64,000 bases of DNA from Tyzzerella sp. (GTDB lineage: Bacteria; Bacillota; Clostridia; Lachnospirales; Lachnospiraceae), in assembly GCA_017465565.1 (NCBI GenBank), contig JAFTWA010000018.1, positions 1 through 64,000 on the forward strand, in the 5' to 3' direction. The position numbers were made by a program, and so were the translations under genes. The notes beneath the pieces are model-generated. The model did not search any database, had not been told where the DNA came from, and saw only the letters and a program-made list of their open reading frames with translations. Each line of letters opens with the position of its first letter. Within the stretch, counting starts at the first letter, position 1. Of this stretch, positions 33,725 to 52,670 are shown one piece after another.

Positions 33725-33760
33725 CCCGACTGCTTAGTTATTCAAGCAGTCGGGATTTTT
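33725..33760. terminator. Bidirectional terminator between merR-RDD and pgmB
   Basis: CCCGACTGCTT pairs with AAGCAGTCGGG around a nine-base loop and is followed by ATTTTTT on the plus strand. The two genes converge on it. Confidence 0.85.
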
Positions 33761-34410
33761 TAACACATTTTTAAAATATCTTCTGGCATAAGACCATCAA
33801 ATCCTGTAATCCAGGCATCTGCTTCTGGAAGATTTTCTTTGCTTCCGACACCGATTGCTTTCATGCAGCCACGGTGAGCAGCTTCAATTCCTGCAAACGA
33901 ATCCTCGAAAACGATACAGTCTTCTGGAGCCAGTGAAAGCGCCTCGGCACCTTTTAAGAATACTTCTGGGTCTGGCTTTGCGGCAGACACGGAAGTCCCG
34001 TCTATAATCGCATCAAGCAAGTCCATTAAGTCAAGCTTTTCTAAGATAAAGACAGCATTTTTACTTGCTGAACCAAGAGCGGTTGGAATCCCAGCAGTCT
34101 TGGCAGCTTCTAAAAATGTTCGTACACCTGGAAGTACTTCATCTTTCTCCAATTTTTCTAAATATGTTTTGTAAAGATTATTTTTCTTTGTACAATAGAA
34201 TTCTTTTTCTTCATCTGTCATTGTGCGGTTGCCAATTTCCAAAATGATTTCAAAAGATTGAAGGCGGCTCACACCTTTTAAACGTTCGTTGTCTTCAATT
34301 GTAAAAGGTATCTGAAGTTCTTCAGCGAGTGCCTTCCATGCTAAAAAGTGATATTTGGCAGTGTCGACAATAACACCGTCTAAATCAAAAATAAATCCTT
34401 TTTTGTTCAT
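33760..34410 (-). CDS. pgmB: Beta-phosphoglucomutase
   Basis: This HAD-superfamily enzyme converts beta-glucose-1-phosphate into glucose-6-phosphate in the cytosol. The 216-residue protein starts with FIFDLDGVIVDTA (nucleophile and acid/base Asp of the DxD motif) and contains KGVSRLQSFE, GSASKNA and KPDPEVFLKGAE, all typical of beta-PGM. The seventh-codon-downstream ATG (34410) is used because GGAGG lies five bases before it; the longer frame begins at 34431 without one. Its natural partner is the GH65 inverting phosphorylase at 49555, which produces beta-glucose-1-phosphate. The operon between them is divergent from this gene. Confidence 0.92.
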   Translation of the reverse strand: MNKKGFIFDLDGVIVDTAKYHFLAWKALAEELQIPFTIEDNERLKGVSRLQSFEIILEIGNRTMTDEEKEFYCTKKNNLYKTYLEKLEKDEVLPGVRTFLEAAKTAGIPTALGSASKNAVFILEKLDLMDLLDAIIDGTSVSAAKPDPEVFLKGAEALSLAPEDCIVFEDSFAGIEAAHRGCMKAIGVGSKENLPEADAWITGFDGLMPEDILKMC

Positions 34411-34466
34411 ATTTTCCTCCGAATTTGTCATAAAGGTTTATAGCAAATACAGAGGGGGAAAATGAA

Positions 34467-35291
34467 TTATTTATTTGTTTTGTCGTGTGCGTTGTTCTTC
34501 AAGTTCAGTTGGGCATACTGCTTTGGCGAAAACTTATAGTAGTCCTTAAAAGCTCTTGAAAAGCTGGCGATATCGGAGTATCCAACCATCAAACTTGCCT
34601 GAGCTACTGTATAATTTTGTAGAATCAGATTACGGGCTGCCTGAAGACGAGTGTTGGTCCAGTAGGATTTGATGGATATCCCAGTGAACTGCTTGAAAAT
34701 ACGGCTTAGATAGCAGCGGTTCAAGTGCAGATAGTCCGCCAATTGATTTACATTCATCGTTGCATAATGACTGTGTATCATCTGACAGGCCTGTTCCACA
34801 TACTCTTCCGCTTTTTTATAGCTAGGAAGCGTTTCTGTATTCATCTGCTTCATTCGAAAAAGAAATTCCCATATATAAGAAAGCAATAGCGGCTCTAATG
34901 GAAAATTTTCCTTTTTGTTACAGTTTGCAATCTTCAAAAACAGGTTCTCAAGATTCTTGGCAGGAAATACATCCTGACAATGTAGTTCTGGCAAATCTAA
35001 ATTAGAACGGAAACCAATCCAGATGTATGTCCAAGGGTTCAGGACATCAGCTTGGAGCTGAAAGGTTTCACCCGGGCGAAGGATGAACGCCTCCTTGGTG
35101 TGTACTGGAAATTCCTTTCCATCTTTATAGACCATACCACAGCCGTTAAGAACATATTGTACGGTATAACTGTCTCGACATGTAGGTTCAAAGCTCCAGC
35201 CAGGAGCACACTGTTGATAACCGGCACGGACAGGAATAATATCGTTAGCCGGAATTGGGGTTACAGTAAAACGGTCAACTAATTTTTTCAT
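34467..35291 (-). CDS. AraC family transcriptional regulator of the second glycan locus
   Basis: A 274-residue protein with a cupin-like effector domain (about 20-120: YTVQYVLNGCGMVYKDGKEF, FILRPGETFQL) and an AraC double HTH (about 170-262: VNQLADYLHLNRCYLSRIFK, MVGYSDIASFSRAFKDYYKFSP). It lies between pgmB on the same strand and the divergent GDPD-ABC-EEP operon. Three copies of a GTCAC-containing site occur in the 223-base divergent region. It most likely activates both sides on sensing the imported glycan product. Confidence 0.88.
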   Translation of the reverse strand: MKKLVDRFTVTPIPANDIIPVRAGYQQCAPGWSFEPTCRDSYTVQYVLNGCGMVYKDGKEFPVHTKEAFILRPGETFQLQADVLNPWTYIWIGFRSNLDLPELHCQDVFPAKNLENLFLKIANCNKKENFPLEPLLLSYIWEFLFRMKQMNTETLPSYKKAEEYVEQACQMIHSHYATMNVNQLADYLHLNRCYLSRIFKQFTGISIKSYWTNTRLQAARNLILQNYTVAQASLMVGYSDIASFSRAFKDYYKFSPKQYAQLNLKNNAHDKTNK

Positions 35292-35315
35292 TTTTTCACC
35301 TAAAATAAGTTGAAT

Positions 35316-35471
35316 TTGTCACGAAAATTTTTTGCAAGTCACATTATATCAAAAAATAGTGACGGTTTGCAATAGTTTTTTTTAAAAAATCTTGCAATAA
35401 TGTGATTGTAAAGGGAAAAACGGGCTCCAAAATTTACCAAAAAGTTACTTTGTTGTCACGAAACATTTTGC
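35316..35471. promoter_or_regulatory. Candidate AraC sites in the divergent control region
   Basis: TTGTCACGAAAATTTTTTGC (35316-35335) and TTGTCACGAAACATTTTGC (35453-35471) are direct repeats. A third, inverted and weaker copy reads GTCACTATTTTTTG on the minus strand at 35350-35363. The right copy lies 44 bases before the GDPD start. Confidence 0.5.
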
Positions 35472-35514
35472 TTAGGGGAATTTGGACAGGAAAAAGAAGA
35501 GGGAGAAAATGAGA

Positions 35515-36345
35515 ATGAAACTTGACAATGCTTTGCAAAAGGCAAGACGAGAAAAGGGTGTGCTGATAGCCGCTCATCGTGGTGTATCAGGTGGAAACAT
35601 TCCTTTTAACACAATGAAGGCATTTGATGCCGCTTTGTGTCAGGGAGCAGATATTCTGGAAACAGATATTACTGCCAGTGCGGATGGAACATTATTTATT
35701 TTTCATCCAAAGCAAGAAGTAAATCATTTGAATCTCAACATTCATTTGGAAGAGATGACGGGGGAAGAGGTTAAGAAACTCCGGTATGTCAATTTTGACA
35801 ATGCACCAACGGAATACGGACTTCCTACATTAGATGATTTTCTTGAGGCATACAAGAATCGCTGTATCATTAATCTTGACCATGCATGGGATGACCTTCC
35901 ACAGGTTCTGGAAGCAGTCAGACGCCATGGAATGGAAGAACAGATTTTGATGAAAACACCTGCGAAATTAGGGTATGCAAAAATTATTGAAGAATTGGCA
36001 CCTAACATAATGTACATGCCGATTTTGAAAGAGAAAGACGAGTTTTCTGAGGTCCTTGAGAGGATGAATATTAATTTCGTGGGGTCCGAATTAGTATTTA
36101 AGACAGAAGATTCACCATTGGTGCAGCCGGAATATATTGAGCGAGAACATAAAAAAGGTCGTCTTTTATGGGCAAATTCGCTTTTGTATTCTTACAAGTC
36201 ACAGCTTAGTGCTGGGCACACAGATGATATTGCTGTAGCAGGCGATCCGGATTACGGATGGGGATGGTTAATCGATAGAGGATTTGACATTATCCAGACA
36301 GATTGGGTGATGCCGCTGCATCATTATATATCAAACAAAAAATAA
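35515..36345 (+). CDS. Glycerophosphodiester phosphodiesterase family protein (cytosolic)
   Basis: The 276-residue protein has the GDPD signature: AAHRGVSGG (catalytic His-Arg), ADILETDI (metal Glu and Asp) and FHPKQE (second His). GDPD enzymes split glycerophosphodiesters into glycerol-3-phosphate and an alcohol. It lacks a signal peptide, so it acts after uptake. Being first in an operon with an ABC importer, it probably opens a phosphodiester in the imported compound. ATG 35515 is preferred over ATG 35509 and TTG 35482 because GAGGGAG ends nine bases upstream. The C-terminus (GWGWLIDRGFDIIQTDWV) matches the closing strand of the GDPD barrel. Confidence 0.87.
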   Translation: MKLDNALQKARREKGVLIAAHRGVSGGNIPFNTMKAFDAALCQGADILETDITASADGTLFIFHPKQEVNHLNLNIHLEEMTGEEVKKLRYVNFDNAPTEYGLPTLDDFLEAYKNRCIINLDHAWDDLPQVLEAVRRHGMEEQILMKTPAKLGYAKIIEELAPNIMYMPILKEKDEFSEVLERMNINFVGSELVFKTEDSPLVQPEYIEREHKKGRLLWANSLLYSYKSQLSAGHTDDIAVAGDPDYGWGWLIDRGFDIIQTDWVMPLHHYISNKK

Positions 36346-36360
36346 AGGAGGAGAAACATT

Positions 36361-38058
36361 ATGAAAACAAAAAAACTTTTGGCATTGTTGTTAGCGGGCT
36401 GTATGGTATTTGGCATTGCAGGATGCGGAAATGGGTCTAAGGAAAAGGAAAACGACAAGAAAGACAGTCATGTATCTGCAGAAGTACCTGATTATATTAA
36501 CATGGACAGCCAGCTTCCTATCGTAAAAGAAGGAACAGATGTCACATTAGAGGTAATGATTGTTAATGGACCATTGTATTCTAACTTAGACAGTATCAAA
36601 GATGTGTATTTTACACAAGCCTATGAGGAAAAGACTGGCGTTAAGATTGAGTGGACAGAAGTATCTTCAGATGCGTTCGATGATCAATTAGCACTTCGTC
36701 TTACAAAAGGTGATTTACCGGATGTCATTTTAAAAGGTGGAGTATCTAACTCTTCACAATTGAAATATGGTGAACAAGGATATTTCTTAAACCTTATGGA
36801 AAATGGTATGTTAGAAACTTTTGCGCCTAACTACTGGGCTTTGAGCAAAGAATATCCTGAAATCTTATCAGCATCTATGACTCCAGATGGTTCAGTGTAT
36901 TCACTTGGTATGGTAAGAAACTCGACAGGTTCTACCGTTGCAAGTAAGCTTTTCTTTAATCAGAACTGGCTCAGCAAAGTTGGACTCAGCGTGCCAACAA
37001 CATCGGATGAATTCTACAATGTGTTGAAAGCATTCAAGAACAATGACCCTAACGGAAATGGTAGAGCAGATGAAATCGGTCTCTATATCAAGCCAGACCA
37101 TTTACAATATGTAACATTTGGTATGTTCGGAATCGGTAACAGAGGACGAAACAACAGTTACATCGACTGGGATGCAAAAAGTGAATCCGTTCGTTATTTC
37201 CCTGCGACAGAAGAATTCCGTGATTGGGTAGAATGGGTTAGCAAGATGTATCAAGAAGGTTTAATCAACAAAGAATACTTTGACTTTACAGAAAGTAACC
37301 TTGGTAACTACATCAATAACGACACATGTGGTGTATTTGCTTACACAAACTTATGTATGATTGGCGAAGAAACACAACAGAAATTCACATATCTCGATGG
37401 TGCTATGACAGGTCCAGATGGGGCAAAGGACTACTACGGAGTTAACAGTATTGGTTCAACAGGTTCATTTATCATTACAACAGCATGTGAATATCCAGAA
37501 GTAGCACTTCGCTGGGCAGACTATTTCTACTGTGATGAAGGTTCATTATTCTTCTATTTTGGAGATGAAGGTGTAACCTACGATGCATTAGATGATGGTA
37601 CATACAAATATAACGATACCGTTTTAGCTGATTATCATTCAGGCGCAGATTCATTTGACGGATGTGCTACACGTGTAAGCTTGTACGGATATGGAAATAC
37701 ACCAACAATGACAAAGGTTCCTTACAACGCAGCAGACGACAACAAGGGTATCGCACTTGAGGCAGCAAACGCACTTATCGAAGACTGCGCAAACGCATGG
37801 CCAGAGTTTACATTTACAACTCAAGAACAAAGAATTATCGAAGATAGCAAGGGCGACCTTGACGCATACGTTGGTTCCATGAGAGATGCCTGGATTATGG
37901 GAACACAGCCATTAGATGACAATACATGGAGTCAATTCTTAAAGACAATTGAAAACATGGGTGTTCAAGATGTCTTAGAAGTGTACGAAGCAGCTTTGGA
38001 AAGAGCTTATGAAAATGGTTTTAAAGAAGGATACCATACATTAAATGAATTTGAATAG
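36361..38058 (+). CDS. ABC transporter substrate-binding lipoprotein (LipO/LplA type)
   Basis: A 565-residue lipoprotein with signal ending IAGC (Cys22). The mature protein resembles the large solute-binding proteins paired with LplB/YtcP permeases: VTLEVMIVNGPLY at the start, GDLPDVIL, and NDPNGNGRADEIGLY, a calcium-loop-like insert common in this group. It would capture an oligosaccharide or glycoside and hand it to the two permeases downstream. AAGGAGG precedes the start, 16 bases after the GDPD gene. Confidence 0.9.
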   Translation: MKTKKLLALLLAGCMVFGIAGCGNGSKEKENDKKDSHVSAEVPDYINMDSQLPIVKEGTDVTLEVMIVNGPLYSNLDSIKDVYFTQAYEEKTGVKIEWTEVSSDAFDDQLALRLTKGDLPDVILKGGVSNSSQLKYGEQGYFLNLMENGMLETFAPNYWALSKEYPEILSASMTPDGSVYSLGMVRNSTGSTVASKLFFNQNWLSKVGLSVPTTSDEFYNVLKAFKNNDPNGNGRADEIGLYIKPDHLQYVTFGMFGIGNRGRNNSYIDWDAKSESVRYFPATEEFRDWVEWVSKMYQEGLINKEYFDFTESNLGNYINNDTCGVFAYTNLCMIGEETQQKFTYLDGAMTGPDGAKDYYGVNSIGSTGSFIITTACEYPEVALRWADYFYCDEGSLFFYFGDEGVTYDALDDGTYKYNDTVLADYHSGADSFDGCATRVSLYGYGNTPTMTKVPYNAADDNKGIALEAANALIEDCANAWPEFTFTTQEQRIIEDSKGDLDAYVGSMRDAWIMGTQPLDDNTWSQFLKTIENMGVQDVLEVYEAALERAYENGFKEGYHTLNEFE

Positions 38059-38069
38059 GGAGGCGCGCT

Positions 38070-39038
38070 ATGAACAAGGAAAAAGCCTCTTTAGGAATAA
38101 GATTCAAAAAGAAACTTCAAGATGAAGCGCACTTATGGAAACGGTCTCTGGGAAGATACTGGCAGTTATACTTACTTTTAATTCCAGTAGTTTTAAACTT
38201 CGTAATCTTCCATTATGTTCCAATGGGCGGAATCCAGATTGCCTTTAAGAATTTTACAATTAGTGAAGGAGTCTGGGGAAGTGCATGGGCTGGATTTGAA
38301 CATTTTCAGCGTTTCTTTAGTGCATATAATTTCTGGCAGATTTTGGGCAACACGCTGATTCTCAGTGTAGTCAGCCTGGCGTTTTCATTTCCGCTCAGTA
38401 TTTGTTTGGCGCTTGTGTTAAATGAAATTCAGCACAAGAAATTAAACAGCACACTTCAAACAATTTTCTTCGTTCCACACTTTGTGTCTACGGTAGTAGT
38501 TGTTGGTATGCTGCAGGCATTCCTGTCACCAGAGTCAGGTATTGTTAACATCCTGCTTATGAAACTGGGTGTGATTCAGGAAGGAATTTATTTTACAAGA
38601 TTGGAAGAATGGTTCCGGCCAATGTACATCATCTCAGGTTTGTGGCAAAACATGGGCTGGAATGCAGCCATTTATTTATCAGCACTGACTGCAATCGACC
38701 CAGAATTATATGACGCGGCGGCAGTAGATGGTGCAAATAAATGGAAACAGCTGACACGCATTACAATACCTTGTATATGGCCAACCATCGTCATTCAATT
38801 GATTTTGAAGGTGGGACATATCATGAGCGTAGGATACGAAAAGGTATTGCTCATGCAGACATCGACAAACCTGGGTGTGTCACAGATTATATCTACTTTC
38901 GTTTACGAAAAAGGTATTTCTTCGCAACAATATGACTATGCGACAGCCATTGGTTTGTTTAACTCCGTAATCAATCTGATTGTGCTTCTGGTTGTAAACC
39001 GTATTGCTAAGAAGCGCAGCGAAGTCAGTCTGTTCTAA
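38070..39038 (+). CDS. ABC transporter permease, LplB type
   Basis: A 322-residue permease with about six membrane segments. It has the LplB-type opening LYLLLIPVVLNFVIFHYVPMG, and its EAA loop carries DAAAVDGANKWKQLTRITIP. It pairs with the YtcP-type permease encoded next. No ATPase gene is present in the operon, so a shared ATPase is expected. Start ATG 38070 follows GGGAGGCG. Confidence 0.93.
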   Translation: MNKEKASLGIRFKKKLQDEAHLWKRSLGRYWQLYLLLIPVVLNFVIFHYVPMGGIQIAFKNFTISEGVWGSAWAGFEHFQRFFSAYNFWQILGNTLILSVVSLAFSFPLSICLALVLNEIQHKKLNSTLQTIFFVPHFVSTVVVVGMLQAFLSPESGIVNILLMKLGVIQEGIYFTRLEEWFRPMYIISGLWQNMGWNAAIYLSALTAIDPELYDAAAVDGANKWKQLTRITIPCIWPTIVIQLILKVGHIMSVGYEKVLLMQTSTNLGVSQIISTFVYEKGISSQQYDYATAIGLFNSVINLIVLLVVNRIAKKRSEVSLF

Positions 39039-39050
39039 GGAGGGTAAGTC

Positions 39051-39935
39051 ATGAGAAAAAGAAGAAAGAAATTTAACAGTAATACAGCGTATACCATTAT
39101 CGTATACACGATTGCAATCGTATCTGCAATTGTATGGCTGTATCCACTGGTGTTTGTAGTAAGTGCTTCCTTTAGTAGTCCAGAAGAGTTGTTGTCAGGA
39201 AATGTATTTTTGTTGCCAAAAGGATTCAACCTGGATGCTTACAAATATGTTTTCCAGAATAAAGACATTATGACTGGTTATAGAAACACGATTTTTTATT
39301 CGGTTGTAGGTACTTTGTATAACATGATTCTTACTGTTTTTGCAGCATATCCATTATCGAAAAAAGATATGAAGGGACAAACACTTTTAACAGTAATGAT
39401 TACCTTTACCATGTTTTTTGGAGGCGGTATGATTCCGGTTTACTTGAACCTGAATAACTTAGGACTCCTTGATACACCATGGGTAATGTTTGTTCCATCA
39501 GCAATCAGTGCAACAAACTTCATTATTATGAGAAACTACTTTACGCATTCGATTTCAGGCGAACTTTTGGAAGCGGCTCATATGGAAGGGGCGTCACAGC
39601 TTCAGATTTTACGAAAAATTGTACTTCCATTGTCCACACCAATCTTAGGTGTAATCACTATTTACTATATGGCAGGACACTGGAATGCATACTTTAGTGC
39701 GTTGATTTATTTGTCAGATGAAAATCTCATGCCATTACAGATTTTCTTGAGAAGAATCTTAATCATGGGTGGTATGGAAGGTATGTCAACCGGAAGCAGT
39801 ATGACCGACTCACTGATATATGAAAGCTTGAAATATGCGATTATCGTGGTTTCTACATTACCAATGTTAATTGGTTACCTGTTAGTTCAAAAATCATTCA
39901 AGAAGGGTATTATGATGGGATCCCTGAAAGGATAA
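39051..39935 (+). CDS. ABC transporter permease, YtcP type
   Basis: A 294-residue carbohydrate permease of the YtcP/MalG side, with FGGGMIPVYLNLNNLGLLDT and an EAA-type loop EAAHMEGASQLQILRKIVLP, ending in FKKGIMMGSLKG, the usual C-terminus of this group. Second membrane subunit of the importer; AGGAGGG lies before the start. Confidence 0.93.
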   Translation: MRKRRKKFNSNTAYTIIVYTIAIVSAIVWLYPLVFVVSASFSSPEELLSGNVFLLPKGFNLDAYKYVFQNKDIMTGYRNTIFYSVVGTLYNMILTVFAAYPLSKKDMKGQTLLTVMITFTMFFGGGMIPVYLNLNNLGLLDTPWVMFVPSAISATNFIIMRNYFTHSISGELLEAAHMEGASQLQILRKIVLPLSTPILGVITIYYMAGHWNAYFSALIYLSDENLMPLQIFLRRILIMGGMEGMSTGSSMTDSLIYESLKYAIIVVSTLPMLIGYLLVQKSFKKGIMMGSLKG

Positions 39936-39944
39936 GGAGGAGCT

Positions 39945-40892
39945 ATGAAGAAATTAATAAGTTTATTACTAATTTGTGCAATGTTAGGTCTGACAGCATG
40001 TGGAAATGGAGCAGAAGATACTGATCCAGATACAGATGATAAAGTAGAGAATGAAGCTGGGGATGATAAGGATTCAGAAGTGAAAGACTGGGATTCTTAT
40101 GAAAATCAAATCAGAGTTCTGTGCTACAACATTTTCTACAAGGATGTTGCAGACCGAAGCGAAAATATTCAAGATTTAATCTTGCAAAATGACCCGGATG
40201 TACTGATGTTACAAGAAGTCAGTGTAGACTGGATTCCATATTTGCAAAGCTTTATGAGTGAAAATGGATATAGCTACTATGGTTATGGACGTTACGGTGG
40301 AGAACTTTCTGCATCTGATTTACAGAGCGGAGACCAATTTACACCGGTATTATGGAAAACTGATAAATATGACCTGAAAGACAGTGGCCATTTCTGGTTA
40401 TCTTCAACACCAGAAAATTATTCAGCAGCATGGTTAGACGGAACAGTCAGCAAATATCCAAGATGCGTCAACTGGGTAATCCTTCAGGATAAAGAGACTG
40501 GCGGAGAATTTATGGCAGTTAGTATCCACACAGACCCAGAAAGCGAACAAGTAAGAACAAATTCTAGCAATCTTGCAGTTGAGATGGTAAATGAAATCCG
40601 TGGTGAAAGACCAGCAATCATTGCCGGAGACTGGAACATGAAACTTACAGATGATGCTTACCTTGCTGTAACAGAGGGCGGCTATCCAGATGTTCGTATG
40701 ATTGCAGAAGAAGCTGATCTTGGCGGTTCATTCAATGCATGGGGCGAACGTGCAGATGATAATTTTGCATTTGGCGATCATATTTTCGTATCAGATAATA
40801 TGGCAGCAAAAACGTTTGAAGTGGTAGATGATTATTACGATGGAGTGCACATCTCAGATCATAATCCACTTTTCACAGAGTTATATTACTAA
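39945..40892 (+). CDS. Exported EEP-family phosphodiesterase (lipoprotein)
   Basis: A 315-residue lipoprotein (LTAC, Cys19) with an acidic linker (about 22-48) and an endonuclease/exonuclease/phosphatase domain. Catalytic-site motifs are VLCYNIF (Asn), MLQEVS (metal Glu), VSIHTDP (His), AGDWNM (Asp-Asn) and ISDHNP (His). The family includes DNases, sphingomyelinases and sugar- or inositol-phosphate phosphatases. In this sugar-uptake setting a phosphodiester or phosphoester on a glycan is the likely target, at the outer face of the membrane. Its catalytic domain is closely similar to the cytosolic protein at 48719. Confidence 0.85.
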   Translation: MKKLISLLLICAMLGLTACGNGAEDTDPDTDDKVENEAGDDKDSEVKDWDSYENQIRVLCYNIFYKDVADRSENIQDLILQNDPDVLMLQEVSVDWIPYLQSFMSENGYSYYGYGRYGGELSASDLQSGDQFTPVLWKTDKYDLKDSGHFWLSSTPENYSAAWLDGTVSKYPRCVNWVILQDKETGGEFMAVSIHTDPESEQVRTNSSNLAVEMVNEIRGERPAIIAGDWNMKLTDDAYLAVTEGGYPDVRMIAEEADLGGSFNAWGERADDNFAFGDHIFVSDNMAAKTFEVVDDYYDGVHISDHNPLFTELYY

Positions 40893-40916
40893 AAGACATA
40901 AGGAGGGAGGATTCTT

Positions 40917-43900: not shown

Positions 43901-46286
43901 AGGTAAAATGACTGCAGCAACTGTAGAAATCAGTGCTACAGGAAGCCATGGTGTAAATAACTCTGGTAAAATTGAAATCGCGGCAATTCAAGTAACAAAG
44001 GCTGGAGATAACAGTATTCAGAATAGTGGAGATATGACTGTAAAAGCAGCGACTCTCACAGATTCTGGAAAACACGGTCTGTACAATGGTAAAACACTCT
44101 ATGGAGAAAACATTGCTATCACAAACGCTGGCGACTTAGCTCTCAGTAACAGTGGAGATATGGAAATCCATGGACTAGAAACTATAGGTACAGCAAATAA
44201 AGCAATTTATAACAGTGGCTATGCAGAAATTTACAAAGCTACTATTGATGGTACAAGTGTTGATAACGTATCAAATTCAACTGCCCAATACTTAGTCGAT
44301 AATAATGGTGGTGTATTAGACTTTACTGATACAACACTTAAGAATGCAAAAGGAACTGCACTTCACAACCGTGGAAATGCAGCGACAAGCGTAACGAACG
44401 TAATCATTAATACAGCTGGAAACTACGGAACATTCGTAGAAGGTGGTTCAAGCCTTTCAGGTGATGGTTTGGAAATCAACAACATTACAAAAGGTATTGA
44501 CGGAGCCGAAGGAATGCCAATTAAGAATGCTGGTAAGATAACAATGTTAGACCATGTAACTATTGGTGCGGATGACCCGGCAGTGACAGGTAGTGAAACA
44601 GAAGTTTCTACAACATTAAAAAACATTGAAAACAATGCAATTGTAAATGATGCTGCAACAGCAAGCTACTCAGGTTATGACCTAGTAATTAACAATGCAA
44701 CAGCAGGATGCGCAATTTACAACAAAGGTATTGTATGGGTAACAGACTTTGCGGCGACAAATCCAAAGGACGGTATTGTTTCTCGTTACGATGGTTGGGC
44801 TACAATGTCAGGAAACGTGTCTATTACAAATGCAAGCAGAAACCCAATCACTACATACGGTAATGAAAGCAAGGGTTACGACAATGGTGTTGAATTAACA
44901 TCAGGTTCAACTATGACAATTGATGGTGCGGCCAGCCATGCTATCAACAATAAGGGTTCGTTCCTTGCGGCAGCAGATACAAACATTAGTATTAAGAATG
45001 TTGTTGGTCAAAATATCAATGCTATTAATAACAATAAAGGAACTATGACGTTGGGTAATGTTTCTGTAGATAATGTACAGGTAACAATCTCTATGTACGA
45101 TAGCTCAACGATTAATAGTAACTCAGGTAATGCTATCCAGACAAGCGGTTCATTGGAGTTAAATGGTAATGCAGTTATCTCGAATATTTACACATTGCCG
45201 GCAAACAACAAGACAGACAATTCAAACAGCTCTGGTGTAGTTGTTAAAAATGGTGGAAGCATTACAGGTTCAGGAAGCATTACTGTAAATGGTAATGGAA
45301 CAAAAGAAATTGATGGCACAACATACCAAGGTGTATTCAATGGTATTTTTACAACAAAATGCACAATTGACATCGATGGAGATATCACTGTAGATACAGC
45401 TAAAAATCAAGGTATTTATGTTGCAGATGCAAATGCGAGGGTAGATGCAAGAAATATCTCAATAAGTAATATTAGTGCAGGACACGGTATTAATATAAAT
45501 AATACATCTGGTCAATTAAATGCAAGTGGAGATATTACTATAAATACAGTTAAACAACGTGGTATTAGCAATACTCAAGGTGGAGAAATTACAGCAGTAA
45601 ACATCAGTGTAACAGGGGCTGAAACTATTGGTATTAACCAAGGCGGTGGTGGAAAAATCACCGTAAGTGGAAAAGTTCAAGTTACAAATTCTACAGAAGA
45701 AGGAATTAGTATGGGCGGTTCTACGCTTACAGCAGCGAACATCATCGTAACCAATGCTGGAAAAGATGGTATTCTTAACAAGGGAACTATTGGTGGTGAT
45801 GGTATAGGAAATATAATCGTTGATATGCAAAATACAGGAACATATGGTATTCACAACAATGGTGGAACGATTAAAGTTGCAAGTGTGTCAGTAAGTAATA
45901 CAAAAGATATTGCTATTTTAATGGAAGGCAGTGCAACATTACAAGCAGACGAGGTGAGCGTTGATACGGTTGCTAGTGGTAAGCAGGGAGTTCAACTCAA
46001 TCATGCCAACACACTTACTGTAACACGTATGACAATTAACAATAACAATAATAAAAATGGTCTGAGATTGTATAATAAAAATAGCAATCCAACAGTTACG
46101 ATTGGTACTTTAATTGTAAAGAATTGTGATGAATATGCTCTTGCAGCAGATCAACAGGACATTACAAATACAAATTTAAATATCACATTGCTTCAGCATT
46201 ATAATTGTGGCTCTAGCAAAGACGGTGTCGTTGTACACAGCAAAGTTAAGAGTGGTATTGGAAGTATAGAAGAATTAACACAATAG
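40917..46286 (+). CDS. Giant membrane-anchored right-handed beta-helix protein
   Basis: A 1789-residue protein with a Lys-rich N-terminus, one membrane helix (about 25-43) and a very long Asn/Gly-rich parallel beta-helix. Rungs recur as NHGVYN, GEHGINN, NGIQN and NGVYNN. In the middle third (about residues 620-1080) they form a four-rung super-repeat of about 87 residues (SKNHG motifs start at 42885, 43146 and 43413). No LPXTG, SLH or recognised lyase catalytic residues are seen. It may be a polysaccharide-binding stalk, adhesin or lyase-like enzyme on the cell surface. It lies between exported EEP phosphodiesterase genes in one operon. Confidence 0.78.
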   Translation: MSNKEGKAVEAAKKFDFKKNKKTVLIILGIIIALLAIGLGFCAKATVSPGELARRLEADGSDTIVVNGTVKIDEPLVVNGDKKITGNGKIVLVGKLAGEWPDDGKKNNSWGMGCASLSLEDTDGMSAILNVSDGSTLALSDSVSVDAAGKANAVLVADGGKLIVDGKATIENGRYANVVVKENGVAELKGGSVKDGKVYGIINYGTLNISGGEHSGAEAVVYNMGTVNQNGGTVAGATVHNVYVAAGTFTMTGGTNEGAAKDGVSVQKGAAAEIKDGEIKNCVHGLCNNGELTADDVTLSECGIMNYKTGVLTLNGTTVDTAAVYCLANNGGQVKAKNFTAKKCDTCAVYNFAGDMELTDLTVSGSRDGNIANGGGNLTVNGAMLEKCRDKSIVVANGKAVFNDVTLAGTSREKYGVYVYGGECYMTDGTLYDISSTAFKVDTGGYVEAKNISMKDIAQIAFRADGGKILAEGVTVETLGSHAIYNMEGEITLINAKIKGVDKNVIQQKGGTTTFKQVEAEEIGNHGAYIELGSVTLEESTFKNMEGNGIYLVEGENEAALIDFTLDGTGKQGINNSSKVTIDGLTVKNAAQNGIFNKENATITAKDVVITGVGEHGINNYNTMTVEKAEISNTGKGSNGLQNKGTLTIKDVSVESSKNHGVYNTGTIKGSSLDIKDVKQNGVYNNKGTFNVSKVSVDGAGEHGLNNADSMTVSNVTVNDTGKGKNSIQNSGTLSITTATLKNSKNHGIYNTGKISGKDVTVTNAGENGVYNAEKGTIDAIKGLVVSGTGSHGINNDAKLVVSDVTISNTGKDKNGIQNAGTADITTATVTGSKNHGIYNSGKLSGTDITVTKPAGNGIYNNGGTVDKIVGLTVKNAGDQGVNNNSKFAAANVNISGTTKNGVYNNGGTATINKLEVANTGEHGVSNSGTMTLKNADISTPGAGKNGIQNTGTITTSAVVVDKSPNHGVYNNGTFNAAGKLTVTNADVNGIYNYEGKMTAATVEISATGSHGVNNSGKIEIAAIQVTKAGDNSIQNSGDMTVKAATLTDSGKHGLYNGKTLYGENIAITNAGDLALSNSGDMEIHGLETIGTANKAIYNSGYAEIYKATIDGTSVDNVSNSTAQYLVDNNGGVLDFTDTTLKNAKGTALHNRGNAATSVTNVIINTAGNYGTFVEGGSSLSGDGLEINNITKGIDGAEGMPIKNAGKITMLDHVTIGADDPAVTGSETEVSTTLKNIENNAIVNDAATASYSGYDLVINNATAGCAIYNKGIVWVTDFAATNPKDGIVSRYDGWATMSGNVSITNASRNPITTYGNESKGYDNGVELTSGSTMTIDGAASHAINNKGSFLAAADTNISIKNVVGQNINAINNNKGTMTLGNVSVDNVQVTISMYDSSTINSNSGNAIQTSGSLELNGNAVISNIYTLPANNKTDNSNSSGVVVKNGGSITGSGSITVNGNGTKEIDGTTYQGVFNGIFTTKCTIDIDGDITVDTAKNQGIYVADANARVDARNISISNISAGHGININNTSGQLNASGDITINTVKQRGISNTQGGEITAVNISVTGAETIGINQGGGGKITVSGKVQVTNSTEEGISMGGSTLTAANIIVTNAGKDGILNKGTIGGDGIGNIIVDMQNTGTYGIHNNGGTIKVASVSVSNTKDIAILMEGSATLQADEVSVDTVASGKQGVQLNHANTLTVTRMTINNNNNKNGLRLYNKNSNPTVTIGTLIVKNCDEYALAADQQDITNTNLNITLLQHYNCGSSKDGVVVHSKVKSGIGSIEELTQ

Positions 46287-46298
46287 GAGGGGAAATAA

Positions 46299-48614
46299 AT
46301 GAAAAAATCAGTAAAAGTAATTTTAATTTCAGCGTTGCTTCTGATAGGAATTATTTCCTTTCAGTTAATAGCAGGTGCAAATGATGACCTTATTGACAAT
46401 AAATACGGTCAAGGGTTTAACGGGTATACTTCTGACGAAGGTCAGATTCGTACCTCAGATTATATTTCCTCAACAGAAATTGCTGTGGCAGCAGGCGAAA
46501 CCGTATGGTTTGGTCCATGTGAAGAAACTCAATATTTCCATTTGGTAGGTTTTGATGCAGATGGAAACGCCGTGACAGATAAAGTTAGAGGAAAAGAGTT
46601 AGAAGTAGTAGATACCTTCAGCAACGGACTCGTTATTTACAAGTACAAAGTGCCAAGCGGTGTGGCTAAGCTTATATTCTCAGCACCAGCTTCACTTGCT
46701 GAGGTATACACAGTGTCAAAAGCAGAGTTCAGCTGTCTCAGTTGGGATGCCCACTGGACAAAGAAAGGTTTCCAGACATCAGACTATGTAGGACAAAGCA
46801 GTTTCTACAAAGTAGCTGATGGTAAAGTAATCTATTTTGGAGCTATTACGAAAGAGGATGCATTAGCTTCTGTAACATACGATGAAAATGCCAACAAGAT
46901 TGGAACAATCAATGCAAGTGATTTGAAATTAGTAGAATCATTCGGCGGAGATTATGGAATTTATTGCTACACAGCAAACGATTCAAGTGTGAAGTATGTT
47001 CAGGTTCCATATGATACTGATTATGAACAATACTATACATATCTTCAGAAAGCGGAAGCTCTTTCAGACGAAGCAGTTATCGAATACTTTATTTCAACAT
47101 TTGGTATTCAAAGACCATTGTCTTCTACAGTGCAGGCACTGGCAGGAAAGAGTGCATTATTCGTAGGTGACTCTATCACATTTGGGGCAAGAGACCGCGC
47201 AAAGATTTATAAGTACGGTGGATGGGCAGGACGTATTGGATACTTCTGTGACATGGATGTTCTTAATAATGGTGTATCAGGTGCATGTATCACTAAGGCG
47301 CGTATAGAATCACACAGTGAAAAACACTATATTTACAATAACTTAGTTGCTGCAAAAGGTAATAAGTATGATTATGTCATTATGCATGGTTTGTTTAATG
47401 ACGCCAGCATCTCTGTAGATGTCAATGAATTTGCTACAGAGTTAACATTGTTGTTTGACACAGCAAAAGCACAGCATCCAGAAGCAACATTGGGATATAT
47501 TGTAAACTTTGAAACAGAACGTGCTGTAGACCAAGCACCATATGTGGATAAGGCTATCGAAATTTGTAAAGCTAAGGGTATCGAATACCTTGATTTATAC
47601 CACAATTCAACATTTGATGTAGAGTTTGATGATGGCTTACATCCGAGCTCAGCAGGATATGACAGCATGTACACAATCGTGGCAAACTGGATGGCTAAGC
47701 TTGGCAAAGGAAGCAGCACAGACACAACGACGTCATCAGCTAAGGTGATGAGCTATAACGTATACTATGACACAGGTGATACGAGAGTAACAAACAGACT
47801 TCAGAAGGTTGCTGCTGTTATCACAGCGCAGAATCCAGATATTCTTATGTTACAAGAAGCTTGTACAGGCAGCCAGGGATGGGTACCACAGATTATAGCT
47901 TATGCAGAACAAAATGGATATGGATACTATGGATTTGCACACAAAGCAGATAAAGGTATTGACAGCAGTGCTGCAGATAAGGACACAACAACGGCAGGTG
48001 GCAGCGAAGGAGAGATGACTCCAATTCTTTGGAAAACAAGTAAATATAACCTTGTGAAGAAAGGTCATTTCTGGGCATCGGCTACTCCAAATGTGGCTGG
48101 TTCTGAGAACTGGACAGTAGGCGGCAATACAATTAATAGTGGATATCCACGTTGTATCAGTTGGGTAATCTTAGAGGATAAAGCAACGGGAGAAGAACTC
48201 TTAGTAGTAAACTACCATGCGGCTCCAGATAAAGATGGAAAAGATAATACACTTATCCGTAATTTGACAGCTCAGCTTGTAGTTGAAAAGATTTCAGAAA
48301 TTCAAACAGCTAATAGTTATCCAGCAACAATCCTTGGTGGAGACCTCAATATGGCAGATGGTTCAACAGCATATACAACAATTACTGGTAATGGTTACCA
48401 GGATATTTGTAAGGCGGCAGATGAATCTGATAACTGTGGTTCATACAATGCCTGGGAGCGTACAGACCGCTCAAAATATGCAAAAGGTGATTACTTATTT
48501 ATGGACGAAGGAACAACTTCTTCTTCATACAAGGTAATTGATGATATTGATCCAGATAATGCAAATATGCATGTATCAGACCATAGCCCAATTATGGCGA
48601 TAGTTAATTATTAG
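46299..48614 (+). CDS. Exported SGNH hydrolase fused to an EEP phosphodiesterase
   Basis: A 771-residue protein with an N-terminal signal peptide or anchor (about 6-26). A beta-rich region of about 250 residues is followed by an SGNH hydrolase (about 285-465: FVGDSITFGAR, NNGVSGA, GLFNDAS, DDGLHPSS) and a C-terminal EEP domain (about 485-771: VMSYNVYY, MLQEAC, VNYHAAP, GGDLNM, VSDHSP). It could remove an ester group and cleave a phosphodiester on the same substrate. The EEP domain is a more distant relative of those at 39945 and 48719. A hairpin follows the stop codon. Confidence 0.86.
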   Translation: MKKSVKVILISALLLIGIISFQLIAGANDDLIDNKYGQGFNGYTSDEGQIRTSDYISSTEIAVAAGETVWFGPCEETQYFHLVGFDADGNAVTDKVRGKELEVVDTFSNGLVIYKYKVPSGVAKLIFSAPASLAEVYTVSKAEFSCLSWDAHWTKKGFQTSDYVGQSSFYKVADGKVIYFGAITKEDALASVTYDENANKIGTINASDLKLVESFGGDYGIYCYTANDSSVKYVQVPYDTDYEQYYTYLQKAEALSDEAVIEYFISTFGIQRPLSSTVQALAGKSALFVGDSITFGARDRAKIYKYGGWAGRIGYFCDMDVLNNGVSGACITKARIESHSEKHYIYNNLVAAKGNKYDYVIMHGLFNDASISVDVNEFATELTLLFDTAKAQHPEATLGYIVNFETERAVDQAPYVDKAIEICKAKGIEYLDLYHNSTFDVEFDDGLHPSSAGYDSMYTIVANWMAKLGKGSSTDTTTSSAKVMSYNVYYDTGDTRVTNRLQKVAAVITAQNPDILMLQEACTGSQGWVPQIIAYAEQNGYGYYGFAHKADKGIDSSAADKDTTTAGGSEGEMTPILWKTSKYNLVKKGHFWASATPNVAGSENWTVGGNTINSGYPRCISWVILEDKATGEELLVVNYHAAPDKDGKDNTLIRNLTAQLVVEKISEIQTANSYPATILGGDLNMADGSTAYTTITGNGYQDICKAADESDNCGSYNAWERTDRSKYAKGDYLFMDEGTTSSSYKVIDDIDPDNANMHVSDHSPIMAIVNY

Positions 48615-48621
48615 AAATTAT

Positions 48622-48653
48622 TTCCACCATGGCAAGTTTTTGCCGTGGTGGAG
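48622..48653 (+). other. Intercistronic hairpin without T tail
   Basis: TTCCACCATGGCAA pairs with TTGCCGTGGTGGAG, a stem of about 14 bp. No T run follows, so it is more likely an mRNA processing or 3'-stabilising structure between exported and cytosolic genes of the operon than a terminator. Confidence 0.5.
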
Positions 48654-48718
48654 TGATTCCGCTTTATTTAATCTGAATAGCCCGGAATCTTTGAAGGGAC
48701 AAGGAGGAATTGAAAAAG

Positions 48719-49525
48719 ATGTTAGGCAAGTATAAAAATAAAGTCAACCTAATGTGTTACAACATCTTCTATAAAGACGTAGCGGAAAGAAGCCCAAATA
48801 TACAAGATTTAATCTTAAAAAATGATCCAGATGTGTTGCTGCTTCAAGAGGTCAGTGTTGACTGGATTCCATATTTGCATGCTTTTATGTCAGAAAATGG
48901 TTATAGCTACTACGGCTATGGACGTCATGGCAATGAAATGAGTGGGTCTGGTTTTGATGACAGAGAACAATTTACACCAATTTTGTGGAAAACAGACAAA
49001 TTTGATTTGAAAGATAGTGGACATTTTTGGCTGTCTTCAACCCCAGAGGTTTATTCGTCGGATTGGGCAGATGGAACTACCAGTAAATTTCCAAGATGTG
49101 TCAACTGGGTAATTCTTCATGATAAGAACACAGGTGGGGAATTCATGGCATTGTGCATTCACACAGACCCAGAAAGTGGCGATGTGAGAACAAAGTCAAG
49201 CAATCTGACGGTGGAAATGGTAGATAGAATTCGTGGAAAACTGCCTATGGCTATGGGTGGAGACTGGAACATGCTACTGGAAGACGAGGCTTATCGTGCA
49301 GTAGTAGAAGGTGGTTATCCAGATGTGCGTTTCACAGCAGAAAAAGCTATGAAAGGCGGCTCGTTCAATGCATGGGGTAAACGTACAGAAGAAAATTTTG
49401 CATATGGAGACCACATTTTTGTTTCAAAAAACGTGGCAGCAGAGAGCTTTGAAGTGGTGGATGATTGTTATGAGGGTGTACATATCTCTGACCATTGTCC
49501 GCTCAAAACAGTTTTATACTATTAA
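48719..49525 (+). CDS. Cytosolic EEP-family phosphodiesterase
   Basis: A 268-residue protein consisting almost only of an EEP domain: LMCYNIF, LLQEVSVDW, LCIHTDP, GGDWNM and ISDHCP hold the catalytic residues. Long stretches are identical to the lipoprotein at 39945, but the signal peptide and acidic linker are absent, so it works inside the cell. ATG 48719 is chosen over TTG 48710, since AAGGAGG at 48701-48707 is too close to the latter. It follows a hairpin and precedes the GH65 phosphorylase, placing it with the intracellular steps. Confidence 0.86.
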   Translation: MLGKYKNKVNLMCYNIFYKDVAERSPNIQDLILKNDPDVLLLQEVSVDWIPYLHAFMSENGYSYYGYGRHGNEMSGSGFDDREQFTPILWKTDKFDLKDSGHFWLSSTPEVYSSDWADGTTSKFPRCVNWVILHDKNTGGEFMALCIHTDPESGDVRTKSSNLTVEMVDRIRGKLPMAMGGDWNMLLEDEAYRAVVEGGYPDVRFTAEKAMKGGSFNAWGKRTEENFAYGDHIFVSKNVAAESFEVVDDCYEGVHISDHCPLKTVLYY

Positions 49526-49554
49526 ATTACTTTAAGGAAAGGAATTGTTATGCT

Positions 49555-51798
49555 ATGAGAGACTGGATGTTAATAGAATCTGGTTTTCAAAAAGAATATG
49601 TTCGCAAATATGAATCCATTATGAGCATGGGAAATGGATACATGGGAGTACGTGCGACCACGGAAGAAAGTTACGAACGAGCAATTCGTTATACTTTAGT
49701 AGCTGGAACATTTGATGCAAAGGAAGATGAAAATACGACTGAGCTTCCGAATGCAGCAGACACGACGGCCCTTTTTGTGACAGTGAATGGGATTCCATTG
49801 CATTTAACACAGGAAAATACAGAAAACTATCAGCGCAGCTTATCGTTATCCGATGGATTGTTAAAGAGAAGCTTTGTATGGAGTCCGAGTTCAGGGCTGC
49901 GTTTGGAGTTCTGCTCAGAACGTTTTGTTTCGTTAAAAGAGCTTCATGTATTGGGACATAGGATGTCCATTAAGGTGCTGGAAGGCTGTGGAACACTGGA
50001 ACTTCAAAGCGGCATTCTCGGAGGAGACCGTTATGGTTCCCCACATTTTACTGCAATGCAGGGACAAGAGCAGGATGGGATTATGCAATATGCAGAGACC
50101 ACTCATGAAAGCAATATTACGTTTGTGACTAGTGCAACAGTAGATGCATGGATGAGAGATAAAGACGGCATTGAAACTCCGATAGATATGACAATTGACG
50201 CAGAAAAAGAACGTGTCATGTCATCCTGCAGAGTCGTTTTTGAAGAGGGACAGGAGTTTCATTTGGAGAAACTTTGCAGAATTGCAACCACTAGAGACAA
50301 AGATTTCGAACTGGCAAGCGAAAATGTAAGTAAGTGGGGAAGAGATTTGCTTCTGCATCGCGAAAAAGAGGAGATGGAAAAGCTCCGCATAAGAGGCTAT
50401 GAAAAGACTTGGAAGCTTTCACAGGATTGCTGGAAAGAACTGTGGAGTGAAAAGGATGTTATCATTTCTGGCGAAAAAGAAAATGCGGAGTATGACCAGC
50501 TCGCAGTACGATTTGCTATTTATCATCTGACAATCATGGCGCCACTCCACGATAACCGTATGAATATCGGGGCAAAAGGATTGTCTGGCAAAGGATATTA
50601 CGGGCATACCTTCTGGGATACAGAAATTTATATGCTTCCATACTATGCTTGGGAGAATCCGAAGGGTGCCCGTTCCTTATTAGAATATCGCTATCTTTGT
50701 CTGGACAGTGCGAGAGAAAATGCACGGGAAAGTGGATTTGAAGGCGCAAAATATCCTTGGGAAGCAGCCTGGATTACAGATGGTGACACCTGTCCGAAGA
50801 AGCATTTTACACAGTATGAACTTCATGTTACGGCTGACGTGGCTTATGGTATTTACTACTATTATGAAATTACACATGATATAGATTTTATGAGGAAATA
50901 TGGCTGTGAGATTCTGTTTGAGACGGCTCAGTTCTGGAGATCCCGACTAGAATATAATGCAGAAAAGGATGTCTATGAAATCCGTAATGTAATAGGTCCA
51001 GACGAATTTACCCACGAGGCAAATAATAATGCGTATACTAATTATTTAGCTCATCTGAATTTGAAATTTGCAATCGAGTGGAAGGAGCGTCTCCAGAGAG
51101 ATTATCCAGAGGACTATGAGCGTTTGAATGAGAAGTTGAATCTGGGAGGAAGAATGAAAGGCTGGCTGGAAGGACGCGATAAGTTGGTGCTTCCTGTGCC
51201 AAATGAAGACAATATTCTTCCACAGGATGACGACTATATGACACTTCCTGAAATAGACCTAAGTATCTACAGGAGAAAAGAGAAGAAGCTTCGAGTGGAT
51301 TATCCATATCCTGTATACACAAGATTAAAGGTGTCAAAACAGGCAGATGTAATGAATCTCTTCTTATTATTAGAGGAACTCTTCACAGACGAGGTAAAGC
51401 GTGCTAGCCTGGCTTACTATGAGCCATTCTGTGTACATGAATCTTCTCTCAGCCTGTGTGCTTATTCTATGCTGGCAGCTGACTGTGGTGAAAATAAGAA
51501 GGCATATGAACTATTTGTAGGAGCAAGAGATATTGATTTAAAACTGAAAAATGACTCCGACCATGGAATTCATGCAGCATCCCTTGGCGGTATCTGGCAG
51601 TGCTGTGTACTGGGATTCGCAGGGGTTCGTATGTGTGGCGGTAAACTCCGTATCAGACCAAATCTTCCAAAGCATTGGGAGAGCGTGAAGTTCCGAATGT
51701 GGTGGAGAGGAAGTCAGCTTGAAGTGACAGTCACAAAGGACAATGTGGCATATGAAGTGCTTCAGGGATCACACATAGTGGAAATAGAAACAAAATAA
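49555..51798 (+). CDS. GH65 disaccharide phosphorylase (maltose/kojibiose/glucosylglycerol phosphorylase family)
   Basis: A 747-residue cytosolic enzyme with an N-terminal beta-sandwich and an (alpha/alpha)6 catalytic barrel. The general acid is Glu484 in NVIGPDEFTHEANNNAYTNY, close to its place in characterised family members, and VHESSLSLCAYSML supplies the phosphate-binding site. GH65 phosphorylases invert configuration, releasing beta-glucose-1-phosphate from an alpha-glucoside; the pgmB gene in the same locus converts that product. Known specificities include maltose, trehalose, kojibiose, nigerose and 2-O-alpha-glucosylglycerol, which cannot be separated here. ATG 49555 gives the usual MRDWMLIESGF start; the upstream frame overlaps the previous gene. 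A terminator follows. Confidence 0.9.
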   Translation: MRDWMLIESGFQKEYVRKYESIMSMGNGYMGVRATTEESYERAIRYTLVAGTFDAKEDENTTELPNAADTTALFVTVNGIPLHLTQENTENYQRSLSLSDGLLKRSFVWSPSSGLRLEFCSERFVSLKELHVLGHRMSIKVLEGCGTLELQSGILGGDRYGSPHFTAMQGQEQDGIMQYAETTHESNITFVTSATVDAWMRDKDGIETPIDMTIDAEKERVMSSCRVVFEEGQEFHLEKLCRIATTRDKDFELASENVSKWGRDLLLHREKEEMEKLRIRGYEKTWKLSQDCWKELWSEKDVIISGEKENAEYDQLAVRFAIYHLTIMAPLHDNRMNIGAKGLSGKGYYGHTFWDTEIYMLPYYAWENPKGARSLLEYRYLCLDSARENARESGFEGAKYPWEAAWITDGDTCPKKHFTQYELHVTADVAYGIYYYYEITHDIDFMRKYGCEILFETAQFWRSRLEYNAEKDVYEIRNVIGPDEFTHEANNNAYTNYLAHLNLKFAIEWKERLQRDYPEDYERLNEKLNLGGRMKGWLEGRDKLVLPVPNEDNILPQDDDYMTLPEIDLSIYRRKEKKLRVDYPYPVYTRLKVSKQADVMNLFLLLEELFTDEVKRASLAYYEPFCVHESSLSLCAYSMLAADCGENKKAYELFVGARDIDLKLKNDSDHGIHAASLGGIWQCCVLGFAGVRMCGGKLRIRPNLPKHWESVKFRMWWRGSQLEVTVTKDNVAYEVLQGSHIVEIETK

Positions 51799-51800: not shown

Positions 51801-51843
51801 AAAAAAGTAACAGACTCGTCAAAAGATGAGTCTGTTACTTTTA
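51801..51843 (+). terminator. Terminator of the second glycan operon
   Basis: AGTAACAGACTCGTC pairs with GATGAGTCTGTTACT around AAAA (one G-U) and is followed by TTTTA. Confidence 0.85.
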
Positions 51844-51889
51844 TGGCATGAGCAAAGAGCGTGGTTCAGGGTGAATGTGAAAGTGAGTG

Positions 51890-51922
51890 ATTCACGGACA
51901 AAATACGTGCAATTCACGGACA
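51890..51922 (+). promoter_or_regulatory. Candidate LytTR regulator operator upstream of agrB
   Basis: ATTCACGGACA occurs twice as an exact direct repeat (51890-51900 and 51912-51922), 22 bases apart from start to start, about two helical turns. LytTR response regulators such as AgrA bind such spaced direct repeats. The site lies 55 bases before the agrB start. Confidence 0.65.
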
Positions 51923-51976
51923 TGTAAAAATTGTAAACAAAGACTTATGTACACTCATGACAAGGAGGAAAAAGAT

Positions 51977-52561
51977 ATGCTGAATAAAATATCACGTAAA
52001 ATGACTTCGGGATTGATCAAATATGTGAAAGATGTTAGGTATGACGAGGAAGTTTATGTATATGGATTTGAATTAGTAATTTCTACAGTTTTATGTTGGA
52101 TAGCAATTATTATTAATGCGTTTTTATTATCAGATGTGATGTCGGGAATTGTGTTTATAATTGTTTTTTCATCATTGAGAATATTTGCAGGTGGGTATCA
52201 TGCCGATTCCTATATAAAGTGTTTTCTGATGAGCAACGCCTTTTTTGTTTTTTTAATGATGTTAAAAGGATTGTTATCAGGTATACATATTTTAGTGTGG
52301 TGGGGAGTGTTTTTGATGTGCGTAGGATATATTGGTCAAAATGCACCAATTATTAATCCCAAGCAGCCAATAGGAGAAAATAAAAAGAAGTTGTGTAAAA
52401 AGAATATAAGATACGTGTTGGGAATTGATGTTTTGGTTATTTTTGTGTATACAATTTTAAATCAAAAAATGGCAAATATGGCAATATTAAGTATTGCACT
52501 AGTGGCAGTGCTTATGCTGATTTCAAATAATCATAAAAATACGAGTAGAAAGGAGGTCTAA
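51977..52561 (+). CDS. agrB: AgrB-like peptide-processing membrane protease
   Basis: AgrB cysteine proteases cut the AgrD precursor at its C-terminal side and cyclise the signalling peptide in the membrane. The 194-residue protein has catalytic His75 in AGGYHADS and Cys82 in YIKCFLMSN; the seven-residue spacing equals that of S. aureus AgrB. Several membrane helices follow. An open frame runs from 51887, but ATG 51977 has AAGGAGG eight bases before it and starts the typical N-terminus. The agrD gene begins five bases after the stop. Confidence 0.92.
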   Translation: MLNKISRKMTSGLIKYVKDVRYDEEVYVYGFELVISTVLCWIAIIINAFLLSDVMSGIVFIIVFSSLRIFAGGYHADSYIKCFLMSNAFFVFLMMLKGLLSGIHILVWWGVFLMCVGYIGQNAPIINPKQPIGENKKKLCKKNIRYVLGIDVLVIFVYTILNQKMANMAILSIALVAVLMLISNNHKNTSRKEV

Positions 52562-52565
52562 GTTT

Positions 52566-52670
52566 ATGAATTTGCTAGCAAGATGTATTGAGATGTTTGC
52601 GGTATATGGAGCAAATTGTGCTTCGATTTGTATGTCATACCAACCAAAACTTCCAAAGTCTTTAATGTAA
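52566..52670 (+). CDS. agrD: AgrD-like cyclic autoinducer precursor peptide
   Basis: A 34-residue precursor. The amphipathic leader MNLLARCIEMFAVYGAN is followed by a core CASICMSY and the recognition tail QPKLPKSLM, which matches the (Y/H)(Q/E)PKxP tail of clostridial AgrD peptides. GGAGG lies ten bases before the ATG and the gene follows agrB directly. By the position of the QP motif the peptide should end at Ser24, which would make the ring start at Ser20 (a lactone). Cys18 or Cys22 could instead form a ring of unusual size. A terminator follows, so agrBD may be separable from the genes downstream. Confidence 0.88.
   Translation: MNLLARCIEMFAVYGANCASICMSYQPKLPKSLM

Follow-up and report, generated by a model that had tools for sequence, protein, structure and literature searches.

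A putative AraC-controlled operon of Tyzzerella sp. combining phosphoesterases with a kojibiose-type GH65 phosphorylase

The DNA analysed here is a stretch of 64,000 nucleotides (the window) from Tyzzerella sp. of the family Lachnospiraceae (GenBank assembly GCA_017465565.1, contig JAFTWA010000018.1, positions 1 to 64,000). Its subject is the gene cluster at 33760–51798, in which a sugar importer stands together with phosphoesterases, an esterase and a GH65 alpha-glucoside phosphorylase. The original prediction had placed in this interval an importer, a GDPD-family protein, three EEP domains, an SGNH esterase, a giant anchored beta-helix protein, GH65 and pgmB, and all of these parts were confirmed there by Pfam and NCBIfam profiles. 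A close relative carrying the same locus, the metagenome-assembled genome RGIG4687 of another Tyzzerella sp. from roe deer rectum, was found by a contig scan of genomes with the first EEP protein (EEP1), which returned two loci only, the other being a weak match in Blastocatellia.

Two genes lie on the minus strand. The first, pgmB (33760–34431), encodes a predicted beta-phosphoglucomutase, converting beta-glucose 1-phosphate to glucose 6-phosphate (TIGR01990 bPGM equivalog, 235 bits against a cut-off of 189.4; orthologue 88% identical). The second encodes an AraC-family regulator divergent from the operon (34467–35291; PF12833 and PF02311; orthologue 86% identical). The other features are on the plus strand, beginning with a block of 22 nucleotides (35429–35450) upstream of the GDPD gene, which is identical in both species, occurs once in the window and is a candidate regulator site. 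This is followed by a cytosolic GDPD-family protein with a DUF4996 domain and a divergent motif (35515–36345; PF03009, 57 bits; PF16387, 81 bits; nearest solved structure 3i10), an AlgQ-type solute-binding lipoprotein (36361–38058; PF01547; AlgQ1 3vlu, E 3e-44) and the ABC permeases A (38070–39038) and B (39051–39935), both matching PF00528, with orthologues 87% and 92% identical, respectively. Downstream lie EEP1, a phosphoesterase with a lipoprotein-like start (39945–40892; PF03372), and a giant right-handed beta-helix protein with an N-terminal membrane anchor (40917–46286; orthologue of 2038 amino acids), whose match to PF13229 Beta_helix is weak (29.5 bits against a cut-off of 25.9). The cluster ends with an SGNH esterase fused to EEP2, secreted or anchored (46299–48614; PF13472 Lipase_GDSL_2 and PF03372), the phosphoesterase EEP3 (48719–49525; PF03372; 73% identical to EEP1) and the GH65 protein (49555–51798; PF03632, PF03636 and PF03633, covering the N, m and C domains).

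The probable true starts of GDPD (35515), EEP3 (48719) and GH65 (49555) were set by eye from ribosome-binding sites and orthologues. From GDPD to GH65 the intergenic gaps measure 9–29 bases, except for 104 before EEP3, and the genes are preceded by stretches resembling ribosome-binding sites. A strong hairpin between SGNH-EEP2 and EEP3 (48616–48658; −25.5 kcal/mol) is a possible processing or attenuation point, and a terminator-like hairpin with a TTTT end lies 3´ of GH65 (51803–51842; −26.3 kcal/mol). The short gaps, the ribosome-binding-site-like stretches and the terminal hairpin mark GDPD through GH65 as one operon, with the AraC gene and pgmB divergent. The proposed dedicated importer operon, bringing phosphoesterases together with an esterase and with phosphorolysis by GH65 and pgmB, is supported. 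The proposed division between outside and inside enzymes also agrees with the protein starts: EEP1 has a lipoprotein-like start by the lipobox criterion and SGNH-EEP2 a signal-like one, and no signal-like start was found in EEP3, GDPD or GH65. The beta-helix protein reaches a hydropathy of 3.05 at residue 24, and no LPXTG-like motif was found in it.

In RGIG4687 the order and orientation of all 11 genes are the same, and the genes after GH65 differ from those of the window, judging by open reading frame sizes and first residues. Amino-acid identity between the two is 83–92% in eight of the 11 proteins, 79% in GH65, 69% in the beta-helix protein and 67% in SGNH-EEP2. Per-gene ratios of nonsynonymous to synonymous substitution (dN/dS, NG86) range from 0.03 to 0.22, although these are rough since dS is at least 1 in 10 of the 11 genes; the 11 genes are under purifying selection. 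The identical order in a second species, combined with these ratios, indicates that the gene set is more than a chance assembly. The locus is present in two of ten genomes of the genus, its own and G553, the latter regarded as one genome with G200 on the strength of matching coordinates. A third genus genome (G552) has a match in the SGNH part only and a weak AraC-family match, and its two matching stretches lack the other enzyme, importer and pgmB genes. Outside the genus no orthologous locus was found, so that the survey of conservation called for by the original prediction points to an operon restricted to the genus, as far as seen. Across the 391 genomes of the class samples, no EEP from elsewhere exceeded 173 bits, against 427–531 for the operon's own copies, and no GDPD exceeded 269 bits, against 639. 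The relative also has a second GH65 copy, which is split and truncated (L040:3374–4741 and after). A literature search, covering few subscription papers, found no published account of such an operon.

The GH65 protein has the kojibiose phosphorylase 3wiq as its best solved match (381 bits), followed by the 2-O-alpha-glucosylglycerol phosphorylase 4ktp (298 bits) and the maltose phosphorylase 1h54 (282 bits). In CsKP numbering, verified against the printed chain, it keeps W391, E392, A394 and E64, and the positions of P402 and T417 lie beside a 13-column gap, their state depending on the alignment. The available part of PMC8537180 gives WET (391, 392, 417) and EEAPxx (64, 392, 394, 402) as marks of kojibiose phosphorylases; the residue roles used here come from it and from PMC8626586, likewise available in part, which gives the composition of the GH65 phosphate site and presents FjGH65A as a GH65 hydrolase. 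The general acid Glu and the phosphate-site His and Ser-Ser are retained (GPDE, GIHAAS and HESS aligned with 3wiq), together with the phosphate-site Lys in GAKG, taken as CsKP K330 by numbering. Because these residues are retained, the protein should be a phosphorylase, unlike FjGH65A.

Thirteen alignment columns of specificity loop 3 are missing in both orthologues and present in 18 clostridial relatives. These columns are present, save small gaps, in 3wiq and 4ktp, and the region is short also in 1h54, 6w0p and two more distant clostridial rows. In the GH65 tree, the window protein and its orthologue form a long branch (1.22) within a 20-row clostridial clade (99/97), beside which 3wiq and 4ktp attach on long branches, a placement flagged by the program as possibly false. 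The loop shortening and the long branch suggest that the +1 site is probably altered relative to the kojibiose phosphorylase norm.

The neighbourhoods of related GH65 genes were compared in 18 of the 31 other genomes of the order that have a GH65 match; these were G088 and 17 of the top 18 by score, in stretches of 11–20 kb. Permeases and pgmB like those of the window were near GH65 in 13 of the 18, and neither GDPD nor EEP was found in any of them, by phmmer or by family profiles. The profiles, built from our own alignments, were applied because phmmer had missed an EEP in one locus (L105) that Pfam found; they recovered the known genes in six of six control loci. One EEP is missing in the profile scan (L026), its gene being absent from the open reading frame list, probably because it overlaps a longer frame, and another search places an EEP there. 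Their absence from the related neighbourhoods identifies GDPD and the EEPs as specific additions to this GH65 operon. The operon shares with the kojibiose-phosphorylase-like GH65 operons of Clostridia (GH65, MalFG-type importer and pgmB) the catalytic and phosphate-site residues, W391/E392, pgmB and an ABC importer, but differs in its AraC regulator, AlgQ-type importer, short loop 3 and the added GDPD and EEPs. It is a glycoside-phosphorylase uptake operon, a known kind, whose set of phosphoesterases is unusual. Close homologues of the GDPD occur in five of the 391 class genomes, own included. Five other loci hold such homologues: in four an ABC importer lies within 10 kb, and in the fifth an EEP lies 3.7 kb away. 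Set against a base rate of 0.29 (an upper bound, from the own genome), importer closeness in four of five is suggestive, not strong.

The EEP core residues, N, QE, H, GD.N, D and SDH, which have a catalytic role, are intact in all three copies and across 14 aligned members, with the sole exception of one Asn in L030. The GDPD keeps HRG, ExD and His, in common with the GlpQ/GDPD glycerophosphodiesterases, among which GlpQ-type teichoic acid hydrolases belong, and H21, R22, G23, E49, D51, H64 and D122, among them the His, Glu and Asp of catalytic type, are invariant in seven homologues. Phosphoester chemistry is thus well supported.

Taken together, we assign a probability of about 0.5 to an AraC-controlled operon that catabolises an alpha-(1→2)-glucoside bearing phosphoesters, the leading substrate class being kojibiosyl- or glucosyl-glycerol-phosphate teichoic acid. 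A kojibiose-type GH65 next to phosphoesterases and an SGNH esterase suggests a polymer that carries alpha-1,2-glucose as well as phosphate. Moreover, the solute-binding lipoprotein is nearest to AlgQ1 and AlgQ2, which bind anionic oligosaccharide. The EEP1 lipoprotein and SGNH-EEP2 would act outside the cell, stripping phosphate or ester groups from a polymer held or presented by the anchored beta-helix protein, and the resulting oligomer would enter through the AlgQ-type importer. Inside, GDPD and EEP3 would free glycerol phosphate or phosphate, GH65 would phosphorolyse the alpha-1,2-glucosyl bond to yield beta-glucose 1-phosphate, and PgmB would convert this to glucose 6-phosphate. Teichoic acid, a source already proposed in the original prediction, remains a candidate substrate and can be sharpened to kojibiosyl-glycerol phosphate. 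Such a polymer would offer one bond each for a sugar-6-phosphate esterase, a glycerol-phosphate diesterase and a kojibiose phosphorylase. Polymers of this type exist: according to the available parts of the sources, Lactiplantibacillus plantarum TUA 5099L has a poly(6-kojibiosyl-alpha1-glycerol 3-phosphate) teichoic acid (PMC9396385) and native Enterococcus faecalis lipoteichoic acid bears alpha-kojibiosyl groups (PMC4205086).

Several observations weigh against this reading. The locus is known from two genomes only, and no glycosidase besides GH65 was found in the operon. The shortened loop 3 means that the GH65 acceptor may differ from the kojibiose phosphorylase norm. The nearest functionally named solved relative of the EEPs is a sugar-6-phosphate monoesterase, no diesterase. 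The GDPD departs from the motifs of most GDPDs in this genome: ENT/ENS reads FNT, a Phe replacing the Glu that 14 of 17 aligned rows have, and HD reads HP, a Pro replacing the Asp seen in 15 of 17. Together with DUF4996 and the missing signal, these changes set it apart from GlpQ/GDPD. Among 23 EEP loci (in the class, from nine of the 11 matching genomes), permeases like the window's accompany four (4/11 in the family, 0/12 in the class), and the GDPD + EEP pairing is rare, occurring in a single locus. That locus (L024, contig C17 of G030, another genus), with EEP, SGNH(GxDLY), an FAD oxidoreductase, GDPD and an ABC importer, is independent of the window's and non-orthologous to it, and its existence in another genus counts in favour of the reading. 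Finally, the distance between GDPD genes and permeases in the own genome is no better than chance at 5 kb (2/16, P 0.75) or 10 kb (6/16, P 0.31). At 15 kb 12 of 16 are near permeases (P 0.005, three distances having been tried), and this clustering, significant at 15 kb only, was set aside as too weak for a general proof.

Some of these points are shared by a rival that is possible, though clearly less probable, in which the EEPs are sugar-phosphate monoesterases like BT3783 and the divergent GDPD acts on a sugar-1-phosphate or another non-glycerol diester. The substrate would then be an exopolysaccharide with phosphate groups, or a fungal or host glycan of that kind, with alpha-1,2-glucose and no glycerol. 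Both sequence search (EEP1 and EEP2) and fold search rank 3g6s, of unknown function, and 3mpr/4c1r, the mannosyl-6-phosphatase BT3783 of Bacteroides thetaiotaomicron, closest; in the fold search human nocturnin and TDP2 come next. The structure model behind the fold search had a predicted local distance difference test score (pLDDT) of 78.7, built with six sequences, and that of the 444-residue N-terminal and SGNH part of SGNH-EEP2 was unusable (pLDDT 45). The fold agrees with BT3783 at a template modelling score of ~0.78, with the core residues in common, and the EEPs may be sugar-phosphate monoesterases. Furthermore, the GDPD subfamily has lost HD in seven of seven rows and the Glu of ENT/ENS in six of seven. 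However, identity to BT3783 is just ~28% across phyla, so that specificity is not transferable; one window copy is fused to SGNH and another lacks a signal, and the operon holds neither a mannosidase nor any glycosidase but GH65. Of the phosphodiester cleavage foreseen in the original prediction, phosphoester chemistry is what the protein families support; given the sugar phosphatase among the nearest EEP relatives and the departing GDPD motif, a specificity for diesters would be an extrapolation.

A second alternative, which we consider unlikely, is the form given in the original prediction, in which GH65 would be a 2-O-alpha-glucosylglycerol phosphorylase whose substrate, glucosylglycerol, comes from alpha-glucosylated poly(glycerol phosphate). 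The glucosylglycerol phosphorylase 4ktp, also a GH65 phosphorylase, is the second-best distinct solved enzyme, and both proteins have Cys-Pro followed by HF..(W/Y)..H around loop 3. Against this, the window enzyme has Glu at 392, as in kojibiose phosphorylases, rather than the Ile of the glucosylglycerol enzyme, keeps the kojibiose-type W-E, has a short loop 3 where the other's is long, and scores lower with 4ktp than with 3wiq. By these signatures GH65 fits a kojibiose (alpha-1,2) phosphorylase better.

An ordinary operon that takes up kojibiose or an alpha-1,2-branched glucan, and to which phosphoesterases have been added to scavenge phosphate, is improbable. The permeases and pgmB beside related GH65 genes would suit it, and the available part of PMC10316084 reports branched dextran use in Bacteroidota; but three EEPs, GDPD and SGNH share one operon, two of these enzymes lack a signal, no dextranase was found in the operon, and an AraC regulator and AlgQ-type importer are present. 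Ranked low together with scavenging, the notion that the EEPs are extracellular nucleases and GH65 serves a separate function has very little probability: nucleic-acid enzymes (TDP2, CNOT6L) do appear in the fold search, but below 3g6s and mannosyl-6-phosphatase, which are closest by sequence and fold, EEP3 has no signal, and a sugar importer shares the operon in both species.

The proposed catabolic operon can be set beside the GDPD content of the genome. Its 16 PF03009 genes are the most among 100 family genomes; the next-highest counts are 14 (G030), 8 and 7, and 24 of the 100 have none. G030 carries three EEPs besides its 14 GDPDs. For 12 of the own 16, a CAZyme, an SGNH, Gfo/Idh or xylose-isomerase-like protein, or an importer lies within about four genes (from reading the neighbours by eye alone), the CAZymes including GH43, GH3, GH106, GH2, GH30 and GH13. 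Four (contigs C40, C13, C38 and C17:65084) have no such neighbours. A bolder version, tentative at best, would see a phosphorolytic pathway for kojibiosyl-glycerol-phosphate wall polymers of neighbouring Gram-positives, with GH65 loop 3 remodelled for a glycerol- or phosphate-bearing acceptor, as part of a lineage-wide expansion of GDPD-carrying glycan loci for glycerophosphate-decorated glycans.

Other features of these GDPD loci were also recorded. Two paralogous loci (L149 and L153, contigs C27 and C15) read GH43-GH3-GDPD-G3P-dehydrogenase-like-SGNH. Seven G3P-dehydrogenase-like genes occur in the own genome, two adjoining GDPD and three adjoining ABC permeases; in the family sample there are 11 such genes in five of 100 genomes, at least three of them adjoining a GDPD. 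The pairing, at first sight a support, is therefore kept only as a hint. Giant proteins lie near GDPD genes, as in the window, at L150, L155 and L158 (1711 and 2459 amino acids with beta-helix; 2919 amino acids with no clear Pfam fold).

Elsewhere in the window, a second importer locus (11159–26686) has two permeases at 14075–15476 backed by profile matches and, by eye, GH43-like proteins and a 2576-amino-acid membrane-anchored protein with repeated SGNH-like stretches. A RhuM + Fic domain protein is encoded at 28558–29475, with a Cu/Zn superoxide dismutase gene nearby (31676–32158). Directly downstream of the operon, 51887–55403 is, on its gene content, an agr-like peptide signalling system, comprising AgrB (Pfam) and, by eye, a LytTR-type regulator and a GHKL-type kinase.

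If the teichoic acid pathway is true, a gut bacterium would eat the teichoic acids of other bacteria through a defined operon, conserving the glycosidic bond energy in sugar phosphate, and the GH65 family would gain an acceptor specificity new to it. A reason would also suggest itself for the 16 GDPD genes of this genome, 12 of which have glycan or importer genes close by.

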